Source of the DNA: Thermospira aquatica
GTDB taxonomy: Bacteria > Spirochaetota > Brevinematia > Brevinematales > Thermospiraceae
Length of the DNA: 64,000 bases
Assembly: GCF_023525255.1 (NCBI RefSeq)
Contig: NZ_CP073355.1
Span: forward strand, 1,178,001 to 1,242,000
Reading direction: 5' to 3'
In this document: one piece after another, positions 21,942 to 63,692 of the stretch
Numbering within the stretch: the stretch's first letter is position 1
How the letters are laid out: each line of letters begins with the position of its first letter
Made by a program: the position numbers and the translations under genes
The notes under the pieces: generated by a model
Seen by the model: only the letters and a program-made list of their open reading frames with translations
Databases searched by the model: none
Told to the model about the DNA's origin: nothing

Positions 21942-22049
21942 ATGAAGGGAAAGATAGCTATAACCCTGTTACCGTTCTCAAAGAGGGATAAGCAGGGAAA
22001 AAGGTTCGATGTCATGCTGCAACAGGGTAAGAGCTTTTCGCGCGAATGA
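21942..22049 (+). CDS. Possible small protein overlapping a 19-bp-repeat hairpin
   Basis: A 35-codon frame from ATG 21942 reads MKGKIAIT near its start and MLQQGKSF near its end; these two parts are the two arms of the hairpin repeat at 21957-22035. A frame at 40629-40763 has the same pattern. The ribosome site here is weak. It may be a real small gene or a by-product of the repeat; the coding call is uncertain. Confidence 0.2.
   Translation: MKGKIAITLLPFSKRDKQGKRFDVMLQQGKSFSRE
21957..22035. repeat. Inverted pair of the 19-bp dispersed repeat (hairpin)
   Basis: GCTATAACCCTGTTACCGT at 21957-21975 faces CTGCAACAGGGTAAGAGC at 22018-22035, with about 42 bases between. Both arms carry the CCCTG form, so the stem is kept; the fourth base gives an A-G mismatch, as in the other pairs. 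The rest of the 450-bp space 21734-22184 holds AT-rich DNA and the lemA promoter. Confidence 0.75.
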
Positions 22050-24487: not shown

Positions 24488-24690
24488 GGCGCCTTGTCGC
24501 AGTGAGCGCGAAAAATTCCCCCGCCTTCCTTTATTGCAGGGGAAGAGGTTTCCGCCTGGCAAGGAAAGAAACGTCTCGAGACGAGGGGGTGGCGGTTGCT
24601 TCGATACGCTCCGCTACTCAGTGACCAGGCTTCGATACGCTTCGGTAGTCGCGAGAGAAAAACCTTTGGCTCTTCTCTTATCACAGTGAC
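24488..24690. repeat. Composite dispersed repeat, copy 1
   Basis: Starts two bases after the DUF2207 stop with the tail of a 19-bp unit (CTTGTCGCAGTG), then GCGAAAAATTCCCC, a degenerate 19-bp unit, AAGGAAAGAAACGTCTCGAGAC, GAGGGGG, two CTTCGATACGCT units and CTACTCAGTGACC, and closes with a 19-bp unit at 24668-24686. The copy at 45404-45635 has the same blocks in the same order. The CTTCGATACGCTCC/CTACTCAGTGAC blocks resemble intergenic repeats I recall from unrelated genomes. Confidence 0.75.
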
Positions 24691-24787
24691 TTCCCTGAGA
24701 GAAGCTCACTGAAACAAGGTAATAGCACGCTCTTTCCTACTGCAACAGGGTAAGAGCTTTCTCCCCAACTGCAACAAGGGAAGAGCA
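24668..24787. repeat. Cluster of four 19-bp dispersed repeats
   Basis: Units at 24668-24686 (plus), 24708-24726, 24739-24757 and 24769-24787 (all minus), matching GCTMTTACCYTRTYRCAGT or its complement with one to three changes. The second to fourth are close together, the first and second face each other. Confidence 0.85.
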
Positions 24788-40628: not shown

Positions 40629-40763
40629 ATGGGGGGAAAGATTGCTATTACCATGTTTCAGCAAAAAGAGAATGAAAAGTCTTTTTGGGGGATGATAAAA
40701 CTGAAAAATGGTAAGAGCTTTTTCTTGTTTGCCAAGAACGATAAAGATAGAAGCTTCCTTTGA
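40629..40763 (+). CDS. Possible 44-residue small protein overlapping a repeat hairpin
   Basis: ATG 40629 follows AAAGGGG at 40615-40621 with a normal 7-base gap. It starts MGGKIAIT, has a middle with K, E and F, then NGKSFFLF. The frame at 21942-22049 shares MxGKIAIT near its start and GKSF near the end, and both overlie an inverted pair of the 19-bp repeat. Either a small gene family or a frame forced by the repeat. The rest of 40493-40779 shows nothing else. Confidence 0.3.
   Translation: MGGKIAITMFQQKENEKSFWGMIKLKNGKSFFLFAKNDKDRSFL
40644..40719. repeat. Inverted pair of the 19-bp dispersed repeat (hairpin)
   Basis: GCTATTACCATGTTTCAG at 40644-40661 faces CTGAAAAATGGTAAGAGC at 40701-40718. 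Both arms depart from the consensus in the same way (CCAT and TTTCAG forms), so the stem is kept by paired changes except for the usual A-G mismatch and one more. Confidence 0.75.
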
Positions 40764-45049: not shown

Positions 45050-45805
45050 GCTATGACGATATCACAGTGTGGTGGGGATTTTTTTGTTAGGGGGAGCTTG
45101 CTCTTCCTTTGTTGCAGTGGAAAGCAAAAGAAAGCTCACCAGCTCTTACCCTGTTGCAGTTAAAAACCACCAGTGTGATGGCTATTCCCTTATCGCAGTT
45201 AAAAAGACTGCCATGCTCTTCCCTTGTTACAGTGTGTCTGTCATGCGGGCTATTCCCTTATTGCAGTGTAAGAGGAAGAAAAGTTTTTTGCTCTTACCAT
45301 ATCACAGTGAGGGGGAAACTTCTAAGCTCTTCCCTTATTGCAGTATGGGCTATGAGAGAAAGGCTATTACCTTATCGCAGTAAGAAAACTTGCTATTACC
45401 TTGTTACAGTGAACGCGAAAAATTCCCCTGCTCTTCCTTTCTTGTAGGAGAAAAAGTTGCCGGTTGTCAAGGAAAGAAATGTCTCGAGACGAGGGGGATG
45501 GTCACCTCGATACGTTCCTGGGGAACTACTCGGCGACCGGGCTTCGGTACGCTTCGCTACTCAGCAACCGCTTCGATACGCTCCTTCGGAGCTACTCAGT
45601 GACAGAAAAACCCTCGGCTATTACCCTATCGCAGTAAAAAATTTTCCCCTGCTATTACCTTACCGCAGTGAAGGTGAAAACCAAAAACTCTTCCTTTATC
45701 ACAGAAAAAAGTTGCTATTACCTTTTTACAGGATGGAGGCAATTCCAGCTATTACCTTATCACAGTCTAAGGTTAAGGGATCATACACTGCAACAAGGTA
45801 AGAGC
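45050..45805. repeat. Left array of the 19-bp dispersed repeat (about 17 copies)
   Basis: Copies at 45050, 45100, 45142, 45181, 45215, 45249, 45290, 45326, 45363, 45392, 45430, 45617, 45651, 45687, 45714 and 45748 are on the plus strand; the last at 45787-45805 is on the minus strand. Consensus GCTMTTACCYTRTYRCAGT; copies at 45050, 45430, 45687 and 45714 are more degenerate. Spacing is irregular (29 to 50 bases, with the composite element between 45448 and 45617). This fills the 1-kb space before the IS1595-like gene. Confidence 0.92.
45404..45640. repeat. Composite dispersed repeat, copy 2
   Basis: Same blocks as 24488-24690: end of a 19-bp unit, GCGAAAAATTCCCC, a degenerate unit at 45430, AAGGAAAGAAATGTCTCGAGAC, GAGGGGG, three CTTCG(A/G)TACG units with CTACTC(A/G)GYGACC-like ends, and a closing 19-bp unit at 45617-45635. 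Copy 2 has one extra CTTCGATACGCTCCTTCGGAG unit, containing the palindrome GCTCCTTCGGAGC. Confidence 0.78.
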
Positions 45806-45933
45806 ATTTTTCTCAACCCCCAAAATCTCCCCATCGATCTTACTTTTAAAATATATAAAACATCTTTTTTAACAACTATAACAAAAAATTTTCGATATAT
45901 ATAGTATGAAAAAATTTCTCTAAGGAGAAAACC

Positions 45934-46734
45934 ATGGAAAAAGATTTTTTCACCCTCTCAGAAAACGAATCTTACCAAATCCTCGAAAAAGCCCTCTGGC
46001 CAGAAGGGGCGATTTGTCCCCACTGTAAGGCAAAAGCACGCCTTCTCTCGTGCCGGCTGGTGTATCAGTGCCCCAAGTGTGGAAGGCAATTTTCCTTAAA
46101 AAGCCAGTCCATCATGCGAAAAAGTCACCTCTCGCCAAAGGTTTGGCTTATCGCCATCTTTCTTGTCTCTCAAGATGGTGGCATAAACGCCGTGAAACTT
46201 TCCCAACTTCTTCATATTAGCTACAAGGCAAGCTGGCTTCTTCTTCAAAAGCTACGAAGCCTCATGCGGCTTACTAACCGTCACCACACAAAATCCATAC
46301 GAAAACTTGTCAAAACCTTTTTCTTTCTCTCGGGTATCAAACGCCGCCAGCGAAAAAATTTCTCCCCGATGCAGGTTGTCGAAATTGATGCAGATGATAT
46401 CCCTTCTAAACTTCACATTCACCTTGTGGATGATGTGAGTAGCGATTGGCTTTCAGACTTTTTTGGCAAGTTTTTCCGCCACACCTCGGTGGAAAAAAGA
46501 ACGCCGTGGCTTTCCCACATTAACGATGGGTTGAAAAACCTTCTTGAAGACGTCTATCACTATGGTTGTCGAAAGCACATGCAGCGCTATCTTGATGAAT
46601 TCTGTTTTCGGTTTAACATCGAGGGGGTTTCTTCCAGGCTTGAAGAGCTTTTAAGAAGGCTTGGCAAACGTCGTCAGCTCCTCCCGTGGAAAAAGCTTAT
46701 TGCTGAAGGGCTTATTCTCCCCATCCACGCGTAG
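45934..46734 (+). CDS. IS1595-like transposase-derived protein with shortened DDE domain
   Basis: 266 residues from ATG 45934 behind AAGGAG. The N-terminal zinc ribbon CPHC...CPKCGRQFSL and the SQDGGINAVKLSQLLHISYKASW helix region match IS1595/ISSpo3-type transposases; the C-terminal stretch KHMQRYLDEFCFRFN is the family's YLDEFxFRFNRR signature. Between them the catalytic core is short: VVEIDADD (first Asp) is only about 50 residues from the INDGLKNLL segment that aligns with the late SNLK region, where about 100-120 would be usual. So two strands of the RNase H fold seem to be lost. Flanked on both sides by the 19-bp repeat. Likely domesticated or non-autonomous. Confidence 0.72.
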   Translation: MEKDFFTLSENESYQILEKALWPEGAICPHCKAKARLLSCRLVYQCPKCGRQFSLKSQSIMRKSHLSPKVWLIAIFLVSQDGGINAVKLSQLLHISYKASWLLLQKLRSLMRLTNRHHTKSIRKLVKTFFFLSGIKRRQRKNFSPMQVVEIDADDIPSKLHIHLVDDVSSDWLSDFFGKFFRHTSVEKRTPWLSHINDGLKNLLEDVYHYGCRKHMQRYLDEFCFRFNIEGVSSRLEELLRRLGKRRQLLPWKKLIAEGLILPIHA

Positions 46735-46911
46735 GTTCTGGTTTTTTCTTTCTCACAACGTTTCCTGAGTCTGTCAAATGAGAATGGAAGGTTTTTGTTT
46801 TACTTTTTTCTTTCTGGATTTTTTTTATCCTTTTGAAAGAAAAAGAGAGGAGAAACTCGAAAATTCATGGTGAAAACGTTTTTTCGTGAGGGGAAAGAAG
46901 AAAAAACATGT

Positions 46912-47405
46912 GCTATTACCTTGTTGCAGTTTTTAGCACCTTATACCCCACGGTATGGTGACGGCTTTCCTGCGATAAGGTAAGAGCAATTTTGGCAAGT
47001 CTCGCGTTAAACGTTTAACTTGAGTTTCTCTTCCACACTCTTGAGTGAAAAGACATTTGATCTTACCTTCTTACAGCTAAAAACTGTTTTTTAGCTATTA
47101 CCCTGTTGCAGTAAAAAAACCGTCCACAAGCACCATAAAAACTGAAACAGGGTAAGAGCAGTGCCTCCTCCACCGTCTCCCGATGATACCTTTGGAGAAA
47201 AAAGAAAAGAACAAAACAAAAGCTCTTCCCTTATCACAGTTTTTTTCTTTCACTTTTTTGCTGTAACAGGGTAAGAGCAGTTCTCTCCCACTGCAACAAA
47301 GTAATAGCTAAACCCCAAATCCCCTTGTCCCACACTGCAACAAGGGAAGAGCATCCCCCACTGCAACAAGGGAAGAGCAATACAAAACTGCAACAAGGCA
47401 ACAGC
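46912..47405. repeat. Right array of the 19-bp dispersed repeat (about 11 copies)
   Basis: Plus copies at 46912, 47059 (degenerate), 47094 and 47222; minus copies at 46970, 47141, 47261, 47290, 47334, 47360 and 47387. 46912/46970, 47094/47141 and 47222/47261 face each other as hairpin pairs. The six outer right copies include five consecutive minus ones. Space 46735-46911 has no gene. Confidence 0.92.
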
Positions 47406-53600: not shown

Positions 53601-55442
53601 ACCAATACCACGATACGACTCACCAACCGGGCAACAACCGACAATCCTGTCTCCATGGCCCGGATTGTCCTGCCGATGGGGATTACCAACATTGACAGTC
53701 TCTTTAGCACCAAAGGAACTGCAACCTATGAGGCAACCACGCATCGTATTGTGGTGGATTATCGTCCAGCTTTCCTGGAAACCAACCAGATGGATGAGAT
53801 AACCTTCACTTTCTCCAATCTCTACCGTGTTCCCACCAATGTAGGCTTCTATGTCGATACAGCAAACCTTACCAACGAGAGTGAGATGCTCTTCACGGTA
53901 GCACCTGGAATAAATGGCTCAGTTTCCCTCCTCAAGATTAACTATCCCCTTGTTGCAGTCGAGGGAGGCTTCTACGGTGACAATCGCATCTATCTCATTG
54001 ATACCAATGCCACCCTTATCTACAGGGTATTGAACCGAACCTTTGAGAGTGTGGTGACGCAGGTGGTTATCACGTTTGAGAAGGATATCACGAACTACTT
54101 CTCAGAGATAAGCCTGGCCAATACGATAGCCACAGTGACGCGTCCGGATACCAATACCAACCAGTTTATCCTGAGTTATACAACAGCAGATGGAATCAGG
54201 CAGGGATACTACGAGGATCTGGTGTTTACGCTTCGTTACAACCTCTCCAACACGGATGTAATCCCCATCACGACCCGTGTCTGGCTTGAAAAGACAGGAC
54301 CCAACGGAACCAACGTCAACGCCCTCAAGGTGCTTGCCTCAAGCGCTGAGGTGAACCTCCTCTTCATCACCAATGCGAACTGGGGTGTGGTACGGGGAAG
54401 TGTCTTCCCAACCAACAGAACCGTCAATGTCAAGATCTATGCGCCTGAGAGCTCGACTCCATCGTTGGATATTAATGGACAGGTGCTCTCCACCTCCAGT
54501 CGTGTGCCAGAGGGAACCTATGTGATCCGCAAGATCCCGGGCGGTACGTATGATATTGAGTTCTCTGCGCCCTACTACCGCAGTCAGCGCTACAGGACAA
54601 ACATCCAGCCCAATGTGATCACCGAGATTCCTCAGATCCCGATGCGCAATGCTCCACTGTTGGGTGGTGAGGATGAAGCGCAGGTGGTAGAATGTTACGA
54701 AGAGACCAATAGCTTTATTGTCTTCCCTGGCGGTTCAGTGGGTAAGGAATTCTCGGTAGATATCACACGGGTACCCCTGACAGCCGAGCAAAAGCGTAAC
54801 CTTACGGAGAACAAGGCGGTAAAAGCCCCATCTACGACTGAGAACATGTATGGGTACCGTTTTGCCCTCAACACGAGAGACGATAAGCCCATGGATGGAG
54901 CTATTGTAAAGCGTGATGCTATTCTGTATCTTGCCTACGATCCAGTGGATATAGCTTCTCGCGGCTGGAGTGAACAGGATCTTGCGATCTACTACTGGGA
55001 TGACAATGGTCTCAATCCTCGTTGGGTGAGGATCGGAGGCGAGGTAGATACGACGGCGAAGCGAGTGGTAGCTCGTGTAAGCTATGTGCATAGCATTTAC
55101 GGTGTCTTTAGCCGTGCTGGTGAAGAGAGGCCCGGTATAATCACGGCTGTGACGCTTCGACCAAAGGTATTTACCCCCAGCAGGTCGGGGGACGGCTACT
55201 ACGGCTCGATACGGGTAACGATAGAGTTTCGAGAGGCGGTAAAGCGCTACGAGGTCAAGATCTTTGATCTCAAGGGCAACCTCATCCGGCGGTTTATCCG
55301 TGAGGATGGTCCGTATACGCAGGGAGAGATAGCCTGGGATGGCAAAGACACGGAAGGCTACGATGTGAAAAATGGTGTGTACGTGTACAAGATATATGCC
55401 GGCGGTGAGACCTACAGTGGTACGCTGGTGATTGCACGGTAG
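47643..55442 (+). CDS. Giant secreted Asn/Thr-rich repeat protein, copy 1
   Basis: About 2599 residues from ATG 47643, set by AAGGAGG and the signal peptide (MKSHRILFPLILWLGALPGWA); a GTG frame to 47586 lacks support. Residues about 20-345 form a beta-sandwich/lectin-like region ending DDMTIRTIAASNVAEISP, shared with the next gene. Then come many diverged Ig-like repeats of 100-180 residues, recognisable by NTG-x2-(G)ND-I-x2-V and a later V-x-Y...G-x-x-D-x-I. The C-terminus has a carboxypeptidase-regulatory-like module (GVVRGSVFP), a ZU5-like part (LAIYYWDDNG...WVRIGGEVDT) and an FlgD/T9SS-like end (VKIFDLKGNLIRR, WDGKDTEGYDVKNGVYVYKI, GTLVIAR). Surface or fibre protein. Confidence 0.82.
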   Translation: MKSHRILFPLILWLGALPGWAEYFFTTFNAAENTIFQYNFLYSPQMGVHNVGNNYATAFNTSTLRITGQGNTAAYYNELYGFFVRKTNVIYTATKERPIGFELTRTFCRLDPDRGIQAESGRMREAFHLMWVQHDPAVDTVGEFLSNFVHFSELMRPQLGTNDGFPSEPNILPRSFWASDLAFTRSSAYSFSNLTPPNGGGSHDLSALFLWGYDDNYGLGIYEGNTGSINWPYFNNNNVVRFRVTIDGEYAYFYVNPNPTGVGKTDYDGTPRAAGYYSNQFYLVGKVAVNFSNNLIPMFGVSDNRPDGEMLSYYVDDMTIRTIAASNVAEISPVMTRAGTTNALRIAIHPWFSTVNEAGVQEVYVDLPQSYLSYTNWTAFTNQVGVFWAQTNGQTIYRTFNRQWADVNPAGGTVAISVKENGKRLKIRFNAAATPDVFHPNYSGFGGSIATTHQYMIYIVVSNFSTPAGADIAGKTIEVYVNNEKYQDTTWANNATTGPAKAYAGNVTAFSGFMADNNTLSFSTANDPVGVAAIRPNFTYEGESKTWFVDVAAKDASESADNNADIVQVEIYLPPGFEAQPGSFSSERLTNTSSIAYDTALRRISVYYTNENKYLIAGSGIDTIRFNNISTTNLDTIPPAGTNQISNSILVVSYAALPGTKPVTNVTSLSYPLQSFLIRKKPPKMQGAMLPTEVSNTLVSNQYAYLIQNKAENTGNNIRRLLVRLDRIFTNVVGVVADRPAVITFSYNITNNNITNTEGYWWILVDYAAASTNVVKGESATVTFWAYDTAPSLANDLYATNISYADNFNGDGWVAATEEPTTGWVTKFYTPPANVRSYIVEPLNEDGILDASYNHHRYTDREDSFLVRLRIKNWGEPENSIYKVRVTLPDGITNIDSVSSLRIGPSQMRTYTTNGGQNVVAEFFYTNSPIPPTEVDDLLLWIRDDIHAPVTKTIQVEAANTTNYALGGLEGADNLDLRFIYPKPAAEGYVIVPDGFIDAATNEATIYYAISNTGLHENQIKELYLWINTNYITNVQFLSSSLGGTYTGFVPDTPPYYRFQVQYYTTFYGASNELLTFKVFDNVENRAEFPIYFSVSNLRMWSNQLPAPPTQTQNVKMIPPPVFYAYGIERTVAFKAVSLGETNTLTVRLRVTNLGWGSNKLHKLRLWIPFGLTNQLQQVSNALLERTNEPAGPVKLVASNLIEISYIDGGQELLAGNADDTYLTFGVFTNQSITGHFVLAVANNSLDEGGQYQWTNYWTNVAVLSATNIFTLVDPARFYIQPTVIATPATSTILSNRIENGVEAFGRKIRRVELTYDDNFITNVEVLNAGSGGLATVIGGTNVRVDYTPALDPNAGRWIVVRVYDRWLEGDTNMLVTAKVWYEADPLGGGEPALIKEGYTNLVDFKNPAASAQGYVTPSIVWQDFLATNYTLFITNTGDTGNDIKWVRIVPPSFITGMSAGVSTKGAVVFVYPSVIDVYYTNVSFAPGEVDTISWQASDNISNTEVSEVWDLYVNNTLQDTLFQSVGVLPGYSQILTIRRPAYQVNYYVEFTNSINTSQRNRMYATEETNSVKIFINNTGSTGNDIVAVRIPIPSIYDPTTAPDNLFITNDMTVTSLKGTVALSNDSVWVNYSSNPILPMDGDEVLITLRDRIDHYETNLTWTLQANLNTTADQYKDASVQVGQSATAFYVMPSPQAMATLLPSEIYLERRSFWLSLVVSNTGRGTSDIDQVQITLPSVLQSDFDITKVSNTVASSTNYSSGVLTLSYSPPIVPGAKDTIYLLVTNTASSVNDDVTLTVTVRNFVKTGPASGNTVLSLSTLPTYYVYVNQSEANRTVDTTTMTNIFSINIDNSVNTSLRVGRIRVAFPTNWFTNGDAYGSERYITNTAHITGHPTNIIAEYALDGRKIVSGDYDVLNFRLWDNLRIGSFTNYVEVYVDDGLAIEESERWIKLPVAGGKTNQFIFEMPPTETAQSMTTTTIYVDTEVTNTTIRLTNRATTDNPVSMARIVLPMGITNIDSLFSTKGTATYEATTHRIVVDYRPAFLETNQMDEITFTFSNLYRVPTNVGFYVDTANLTNESEMLFTVAPGINGSVSLLKINYPLVAVEGGFYGDNRIYLIDTNATLIYRVLNRTFESVVTQVVITFEKDITNYFSEISLANTIATVTRPDTNTNQFILSYTTADGIRQGYYEDLVFTLRYNLSNTDVIPITTRVWLEKTGPNGTNVNALKVLASSAEVNLLFITNANWGVVRGSVFPTNRTVNVKIYAPESSTPSLDINGQVLSTSSRVPEGTYVIRKIPGGTYDIEFSAPYYRSQRYRTNIQPNVITEIPQIPMRNAPLLGGEDEAQVVECYEETNSFIVFPGGSVGKEFSVDITRVPLTAEQKRNLTENKAVKAPSTTENMYGYRFALNTRDDKPMDGAIVKRDAILYLAYDPVDIASRGWSEQDLAIYYWDDNGLNPRWVRIGGEVDTTAKRVVARVSYVHSIYGVFSRAGEERPGIITAVTLRPKVFTPSRSGDGYYGSIRVTIEFREAVKRYEVKIFDLKGNLIRRFIREDGPYTQGEIAWDGKDTEGYDVKNGVYVYKIYAGGETYSGTLVIAR

Positions 55443-63646: not shown

Positions 63647-63692
63647 GCTATTTCCTTTTTGCAGTGGGGAAGAGCTATTACCATGGTACAGG
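63647..63692. repeat. Two direct copies of the 19-bp dispersed repeat
   Basis: GCTATTTCCTTTTTGCAGT at 63647-63665 and GCTATTACCATGGTACAGG at 63674-63692, both plus strand. The rest of 63515-63824 has only the ssb promoter region and no gene. Confidence 0.7.

Follow-up and report, generated by a model that had tools for sequence, protein, structure and literature searches.

REP-type repeats are among the commonest repeats of bacterial genomes, and their described partner is an active HUH protein. In REP/RAYT systems (REPtron, REPIN), that is, the partner is a Y1 HUH protein which has kept its catalysis, the repeats are palindromic with a GTAG-type head, and the partner gene, tnpA-REP, is mostly single copy and non-mobile, with the repeats of some REPtrons concentrated near that gene (PMC2817692, PMC8266576, PMC3116915). 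Cleaving or joining of the repeat in single-stranded form is likewise expected of that partner. A second, unrelated partner, one from which catalysis has been lost, would show that repeat populations can be kept and indeed enlarged without transposition chemistry. The other described relatives of relevance here are insertion sequences of the IS1595 family and their eukaryotic relative, Merlin, the family features of which are available (PMC8101967).

The window, i.e., the whole 64-kb stretch of DNA analysed here, comes from a genome (G000) that consists of a single contig of 2,515,453 bp. Its repeat system resembles REP/RAYT in several respects: inverted repeats flank the gene (in 15 of 16 elements of this genome and at most of the Paenibacillus loci read), there are more than 100 dispersed copies (688 in this genome, 331 in a same-genus relative, G002), inverted doublets occur, repeat abundance is tied to gene presence, and the associated protein is of transposase ancestry. 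Unlike REP/RAYT, however, that ancestry is IS1595/DDE rather than HUH tyrosine, catalysis has been lost rather than kept, the repeats have no GTAG-type head and form long convergent arrays of direct copies, and the gene is present as 13 intact copies plus three broken loci. The system thus is REP/RAYT-like by organisation without being a member of REP/RAYT, as there is no HUH domain, no GTAG head, and instead many gene copies.

The reading preferred here, with a probability of about 0.6, is that this would be a REP/RAYT-like system whose partner is a catalytically ‘dead’ derivative of an IS1595-family transposase, with the repeats as its putative sites. No published IS1595-linked REP system was found in the open-access literature, in keeping with the original prediction, which knew of none, and the ‘dead’-transposase repeat system looks like a previously undescribed counterpart of REP/RAYT.

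The array in the window and its copies across the genome

From 45050 to 47405 of the window, 27 copies of the 19-mer GCTMTTMCCYTRTYRCAGT occur within 2.35 kb at no more than 3 mismatches, and a 4-mismatch copy at 45430 brings the total to 28, which is the number noted beforehand (about 28 in 2.4 kb). Random first-order Markov sequences with the window's composition average 0.3 copies per 64 kb and never exceed 2. The gene, at 45934..46734 on the plus strand, separates a left array (45050..45805, plus strand) of 15 plus copies and 1 minus, besides the copy at 45430, from a right array (46912..47405, minus strand) of 7 minus copies and 4 plus, with a minus copy outermost. The arrangement described at first, almost all plus on the left and mostly minus on the right, is thereby borne out. 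A minus copy at 45787..45805 lies 129 bp before the ATG and is a candidate autoregulatory site.

A CRISPR identity was rejected because the spacing is variable and the repeats are found in both orientations. Recent tandem duplication as the source of this array likewise is unsupported by its spacers, which are mutually unlike (identity 0.19 versus 0.17 when shuffled), unlike those of Paenibacillus (about 0.8). The left array also is broken, at about 45490-45610, by a GC-rich insertion with several CTTCGNTACGCT/GCTACTCAG-type motifs. Segments of CTTCGACTTCGCTCAGTA, which are similar to the motifs of that insertion, adjoin doublets in G002, and motifs of these types perhaps represent a separate dispersed repeat family.

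Outlying copies had been described as single or paired, and pairs are indeed what is found at 22.0 kb (21957..22034, i.e., 21957+ then 22016-), at 40.7 kb (40644..40718, i.e., 40644+ then 40700-, with 3 mismatches in each copy), and at 63.7 kb (63647..63692, two direct plus-strand copies, 63647+ and 63674+, with 2 and 3 mismatches, respectively). That description fails at 24.7 kb, where there are four copies making up an isolated mini-array without a gene (24669..24786: 24669+, 24708-, 24739-, and 24768-). A weak match at 53941, within a long ORF, probably is due to chance.

The 688 copies found genome-wide (382 forward, 306 reverse; at most 2 mismatches) are to be compared with 0 for a reversed-pattern control at the same threshold, a count of the kind called for by the original prediction. 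The notion of a single gene, by contrast, has to be given up, as the window's gene is one of the 13 intact copies noted above, with the other 12 being 91-94% identical to its 266-aa protein. All 16 gene loci, broken ones included, sit within arrays of their own. In 15 of these 16 elements the array opens with a plus repeat at its left edge and closes with a minus repeat at its right. Likewise in 15 of 16 elements, the first 19-mer met upstream of the start codon has minus orientation and is 129-131 bp away, the exception being an element with an insertion sequence in its left array. Arrays without a gene are found as well, e.g., at genome positions 31, 39, 299, and 424 kb. The paralogous loci align without a break across the gene and some 100-400 bp of its surroundings, and as a patchwork within the arrays, as would be expected were arrays to recombine with each other. 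The 19-mer itself is not palindromic, and hairpins form only from plus/minus doublets.

Conventional insertion sequences (about 1.3-2 kb, of several types, with families assigned by eye) are found within or at the edge of arrays at L041, L044, L046, L048, L051, L054, and L056, as if arrays were safe landing places for them. As drivers of the arrays these neighbours were rejected, since they look like ordinary insertion sequences of other families which have landed in or near intergenic arrays. In the stretches put through Rfam, tRNAs alone were matched.

Ancestry of the protein and selection on it

The 266-aa protein encoded at 45934..46734 has a zinc ribbon, an HTH-like region, and a truncated RNase-H-like remnant. 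The zinc ribbon matches Pfam PF12760 (Zn_ribbon_IS1595) at 2.5e-9, with 37.4 bits versus a cut-off of 25.4, and the gene thus is IS1595-like as had been predicted. By contrast with that match, PF12762 (the DDE domain) is matched over its final 42 positions only (112-153) and under cut-off, and NCBIfam transpos_IS1595, at 62.2 bits, is under its cut-off of 75. Zinc ribbon and DDE remnant are the only meaningful matches from the Pfam scan of this protein, in which a Y1 HUH domain (Transposase_17) was not found. Upon alignment with catalytically intact relatives, the positions of the first Asp, the second Asp, and the third residue (Asn) are seen to be lost (D1/D2/N3 absent), and the strand bearing the second Asp to be deleted. 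Homologues from Paenibacillus and Desulfobulbales have lost the catalytic columns also, with different residues in their place. An AlphaFold model (pLDDT 84, pTM 0.84) gave no significant PDB match with Foldseek, and PDB sequence and fold searches led to ribosomal zinc ribbons and to retroviral integrases at E 0.08. The prediction of a DDE-type protein consequently stands as to ancestry, for which these sequence features argue, but not as to function, as with its catalytic residues lost the protein presumably is not a working DDE partner.

Shared with the IS1595 family are the N-terminal IS1595 zinc ribbon, the conserved C-terminal H..RYLDEF block, and TIR-like ends in the form of inverted outer repeats. 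Not shared is a DDE/N triad. As for an 8-bp target duplication, no clear one was detected at 42 doublets of G002. Unlike in the family, too, the ends have been amplified into arrays as well as dispersed single ends and doublets. The system, that is, descends from the IS1595 family and falls short of the family's catalytic criterion. The rest of the window's genome yields no further DDE_Tnp_IS1595 match and lacks an intact transposase domain of the IS1595 type.

A tree built from 71 proteins groups the main ‘dead’ lineages into a single clade (support 95/92, which may have been helped by long-branch attraction) that adjoins intact DDN proteins and covers the Brevinematales, Paenibacillus, and Desulfobulbales branches. 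Two further ‘dead’ proteins, L118 from another genus of the order and L179 from a Cryomorphaceae MAG, are placed elsewhere in the tree, and catalytic loss therefore probably happened more than once. The homologue at L094/L118 (G007), without catalytic Asp residues and with no obvious repeats nearby, perhaps is an independent inactivation.

The gene copies are under strong purifying selection, with a median dN/dS of 0.11 across the 13 intact ones. Between paralogous elements, codon positions 1, 2, and 3 diverge by 3.9, 4.0, and 14.5%, respectively, the eleven core positions of the 19-mer by 1.2%, its degenerate positions by 9.1%, and the rest of the arrays, i.e., the spacers, by 6.9%. The 19-mer core is constrained. 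Choosing sites by motif should explain little of this gap between core and spacer, by our estimate, because the repeat definition (at most 3 mismatches) is loose relative to the divergence seen. Conserved sites amid unconstrained spacers would have the look of binding sites.

These same data speak to whether the loci could be ordinary, decaying IS1595 insertion sequences with MITE-like remnants. Zinc-ribbon and TIR ancestry is as that would require, as is the presence of a few broken gene copies. All intact copies lack catalytic residues, however, and yet display a dN/dS of 0.11, their cores are conserved while spacers diverge, and the ‘dead’ lineage extends across three phyla. Plain IS1595 elements plus MITEs were rejected, as very improbable indeed, because the catalytic residues are gone while selection persists. 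The resemblance to bacterial insertion-sequence MITEs, i.e., gene-less TIR-TIR doublets of about 54 bp in G002, is limited, too, in that the window's genome has yielded no active parental transposase, target duplications are not clearly seen, and the repeat core is constrained.

Repeats and genes in relatives

Two same-genus relatives, G001 and G002, carry homologues of 36-44% identity that are flanked by diverged repeats. In G002 there are three complete homologues (41-44%), with additional partial ones where contigs end, and they are flanked by GCTATTACCYTRTTTCAGC, of which there are 331 copies in that genome (control 0) and 8 in G001 (control 2). The G002 stretches read hold 145 repeats, including 44 plus/minus doublets, 42 of which are 51-56 bp in length; two of these doublets, folded as single-stranded DNA, form strong hairpins. 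In G001, one homologue is accompanied by a further repeat variant and a second paralogue (36%) by GTTCTCTCCTTTTCTCA, which is found in 33 copies, often paired at 67-68 bp apart, with 24 of the 33 on the gene's own 124-kb contig. Repeat sequence thus differs between species together with the protein, and a search of the other relatives gave no enrichment of the window's own 19-mer. The predicted pairing of a dispersed repeat with an IS1595-type protein, REP/RAYT-like in character, accordingly recurs in two further species of the genus, as it does in Paenibacillus (below).

At least five cases were seen of repeats of the window's genome and of G002 occupying common intergenic regions: upstream of ileS, upstream of a 2618-aa ORF, beside the L050 and L058 genes, and at the L041/L089 element. 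This sharing of sites is only suggestive because the loci were picked for carrying repeats. Synteny between two Brevinematales species also breaks at repeats (L089 versus L041/L058; L197 and L203 versus the window), suggesting that repeats act as rearrangement points.

A larger dispersed, non-coding repeat is present in G002 as well (L197, L200, L206-L209, L212, and L216), with a sharp left end, TGTCGTTCCACATATGAAACTGAAT, and a REP-like doublet inside; scanned copies of it had no match in Rfam. As one doublet subfamily is embedded in this larger repeat, some G002 copies may have been carried along by something else.

Doublets also bear on the idea of a selfish element that is still transposing, that is, one for which an unrecognised active site in the remodelled protein, or another transposase acting in trans, moves both TIR-bounded gene copies and gene-less doublets. 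In favour of this, copies are found at many loci with their outer ends in terminal-inverted-repeat orientation, purifying selection over 13 copies would fit a protein needed for its own spread, and near-identical doublets along with the larger dispersed family of G002 suggest past mobility. Against this, the D1, D2, and N3 positions are lost and the D2 strand deleted, the genome is without an intact IS1595 transposase, and several repeat sites are common to another species. In addition, a target-site duplication test of 42 G002 doublets returned none that was clear, the best z being 3.0 among 150 tests (identity 0.30 versus 0.23). Ongoing transposition is, on balance, unlikely.

Beyond the order, the homologues found by searching GTDB genomes are ‘dead’ in Paenibacillus and Desulfobulbales, with intact ones turning up elsewhere. 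Of the ‘dead’ Paenibacillus genes, 9 of 10 have tandem arrays within 1.5 kb; among intact relatives the figure is 2 of 31, and in Desulfobulbales it is 0 of 20. At most of the Paenibacillus gene loci read, the ‘dead’ gene is flanked by inverted CACTMTCCCNTTNRCTCAG-like ends, which resemble both TGACTATCCCTTTCCCTCA, the end of a catalytically intact element (L125), and the window's GCTATTCCCTTATTGCAGT. As the 19-mer thus resembles the terminal inverted repeats of intact IS1595-type elements, it probably is a former transposon end. Gene-less convergent arrays also occur between Paenibacillus genes, e.g., with 6 plus copies followed by 15 minus, or 12 followed by 7, spaced about 45-52 bp apart, and their spacers are alike (identity about 0.8), which points to tandem duplication. 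At L134 and L158, the ‘dead’ gene is accompanied not just by TIR-like repeats but also by tandem repeats of very short period, 10 bp and 9 bp, respectively.

Co-occurrence was followed across 19 species of one Paenibacillus genus. The 10 species with the gene have 160, 10, 81, 141, 89, 79, 4, 106, 7, and 111 repeats, versus 0-2 in the 9 species without it (Spearman 0.94; Mann-Whitney p 1e-4, a guide only because the species are related and their counts, through shared ancestry, not independent). A search for the repeat in relatives lacking the gene, as had been proposed, therefore comes out in favour of the pairing, with 0-2 copies in these gene-less Paenibacillus species and more distant relatives of the window's genome being without the 19-mer. 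It follows as well that the repeats are hardly credible as sites of some different host protein, with IS1595-like genes merely hitch-hiking in the arrays: in Paenibacillus the repeat comes and goes with the gene, in three lineages of Brevinematales a change in the protein is accompanied by a change in the repeat, and the 19-mer resembles IS1595-type ends.

What the protein may do for its repeats

Most likely, judging from sequence comparisons, the protein is DNA-binding and the repeats are its sites. Under the preferred reading, that of a catalytically ‘dead’ partner, the protein would bind the 19-mer via its N-terminal domains and may repress or otherwise regulate its own gene from the conserved upstream site, with the repeats being kept as binding sites. 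Arrays would then enlarge by tandem duplication of site plus spacer, by recombination or replication slippage, direct support for which is confined to the Paenibacillus spacers. Gene copies, in turn, would move between arrays via ectopic homologous recombination or gene conversion rather than DDE transposition. A point against the ‘dead’-partner reading is that spread to 16 gene loci is unaccounted for without catalysis.

A bolder version, which we entertain tentatively, is that a transposase without chemistry, solely by binding, maintains its former ends and multiplies them into dispersed doublets as well as convergent arrays, which might serve as a platform for organising the chromosome. Amplification would come about through what bound arrays do to replication or recombination, and this would represent an undescribed class present in at least two phyla.

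Domesticated eukaryotic transposases can keep binding dispersed transposon ends. As with these (e.g., CSB-PGBD3; PMC2268245), the window system combines a transposase derivative with many dispersed former ends; unlike these, it is bacterial, and its gene is multi-copy and surrounded by arrays of sites. That the protein has been fully domesticated for work on the host chromosome, with copies kept for the host and with arrays on which the nucleoid would be organised, segregation carried out, or transcription insulated, is compatible with the constraint on 19-mer cores, with repeats persisting at orthologous intergenic sites while undergoing coordinated sequence change, and with cognate doublets clustering around the gene in G001. 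The Desulfobulbales state, that of a single operator, suggests in addition that the protein can be a single-site DNA-binding factor. Thirteen near-redundant gene copies would be odd for host service, however, copy number is highly variable among species of one genus, and the system is absent from many species, such that we view full domestication as quite improbable.

With the catalytically ‘dead’ partner again as the working view, the system lends itself to asking cleanly whether a DNA-binding protein of transposase descent serves its repeats through regulation, through chromosome structure, or through selfish spread. More generally, it may be worth going back to genes annotated as IS1595 transposase and checking their catalytic residues. 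The three branches could be read as a progression in stages, in which Desulfobulbales would have a lone operator, Paenibacillus genes flanked by TIRs together with arrays, and Brevinematales sites by the hundreds.

As to the first of those would-be stages, a search of Desulfobulbales for a TIR-like repeat turned up none, and revealed instead a different, single-copy palindrome. This palindrome, GCCACACTTnTGTnnnATCAnAAGTGTGGC, occurs at one place per genome in 10 of 10 genomes and is upstream of the ‘dead’ gene in the loci read, consistent with what may be an operator-like state. At L139-L181, where the ‘dead’ IS1595-like gene has its upstream palindrome along with a conserved AAGTGGATAAGT element, the gene itself has the appearance of a domesticated regulator.
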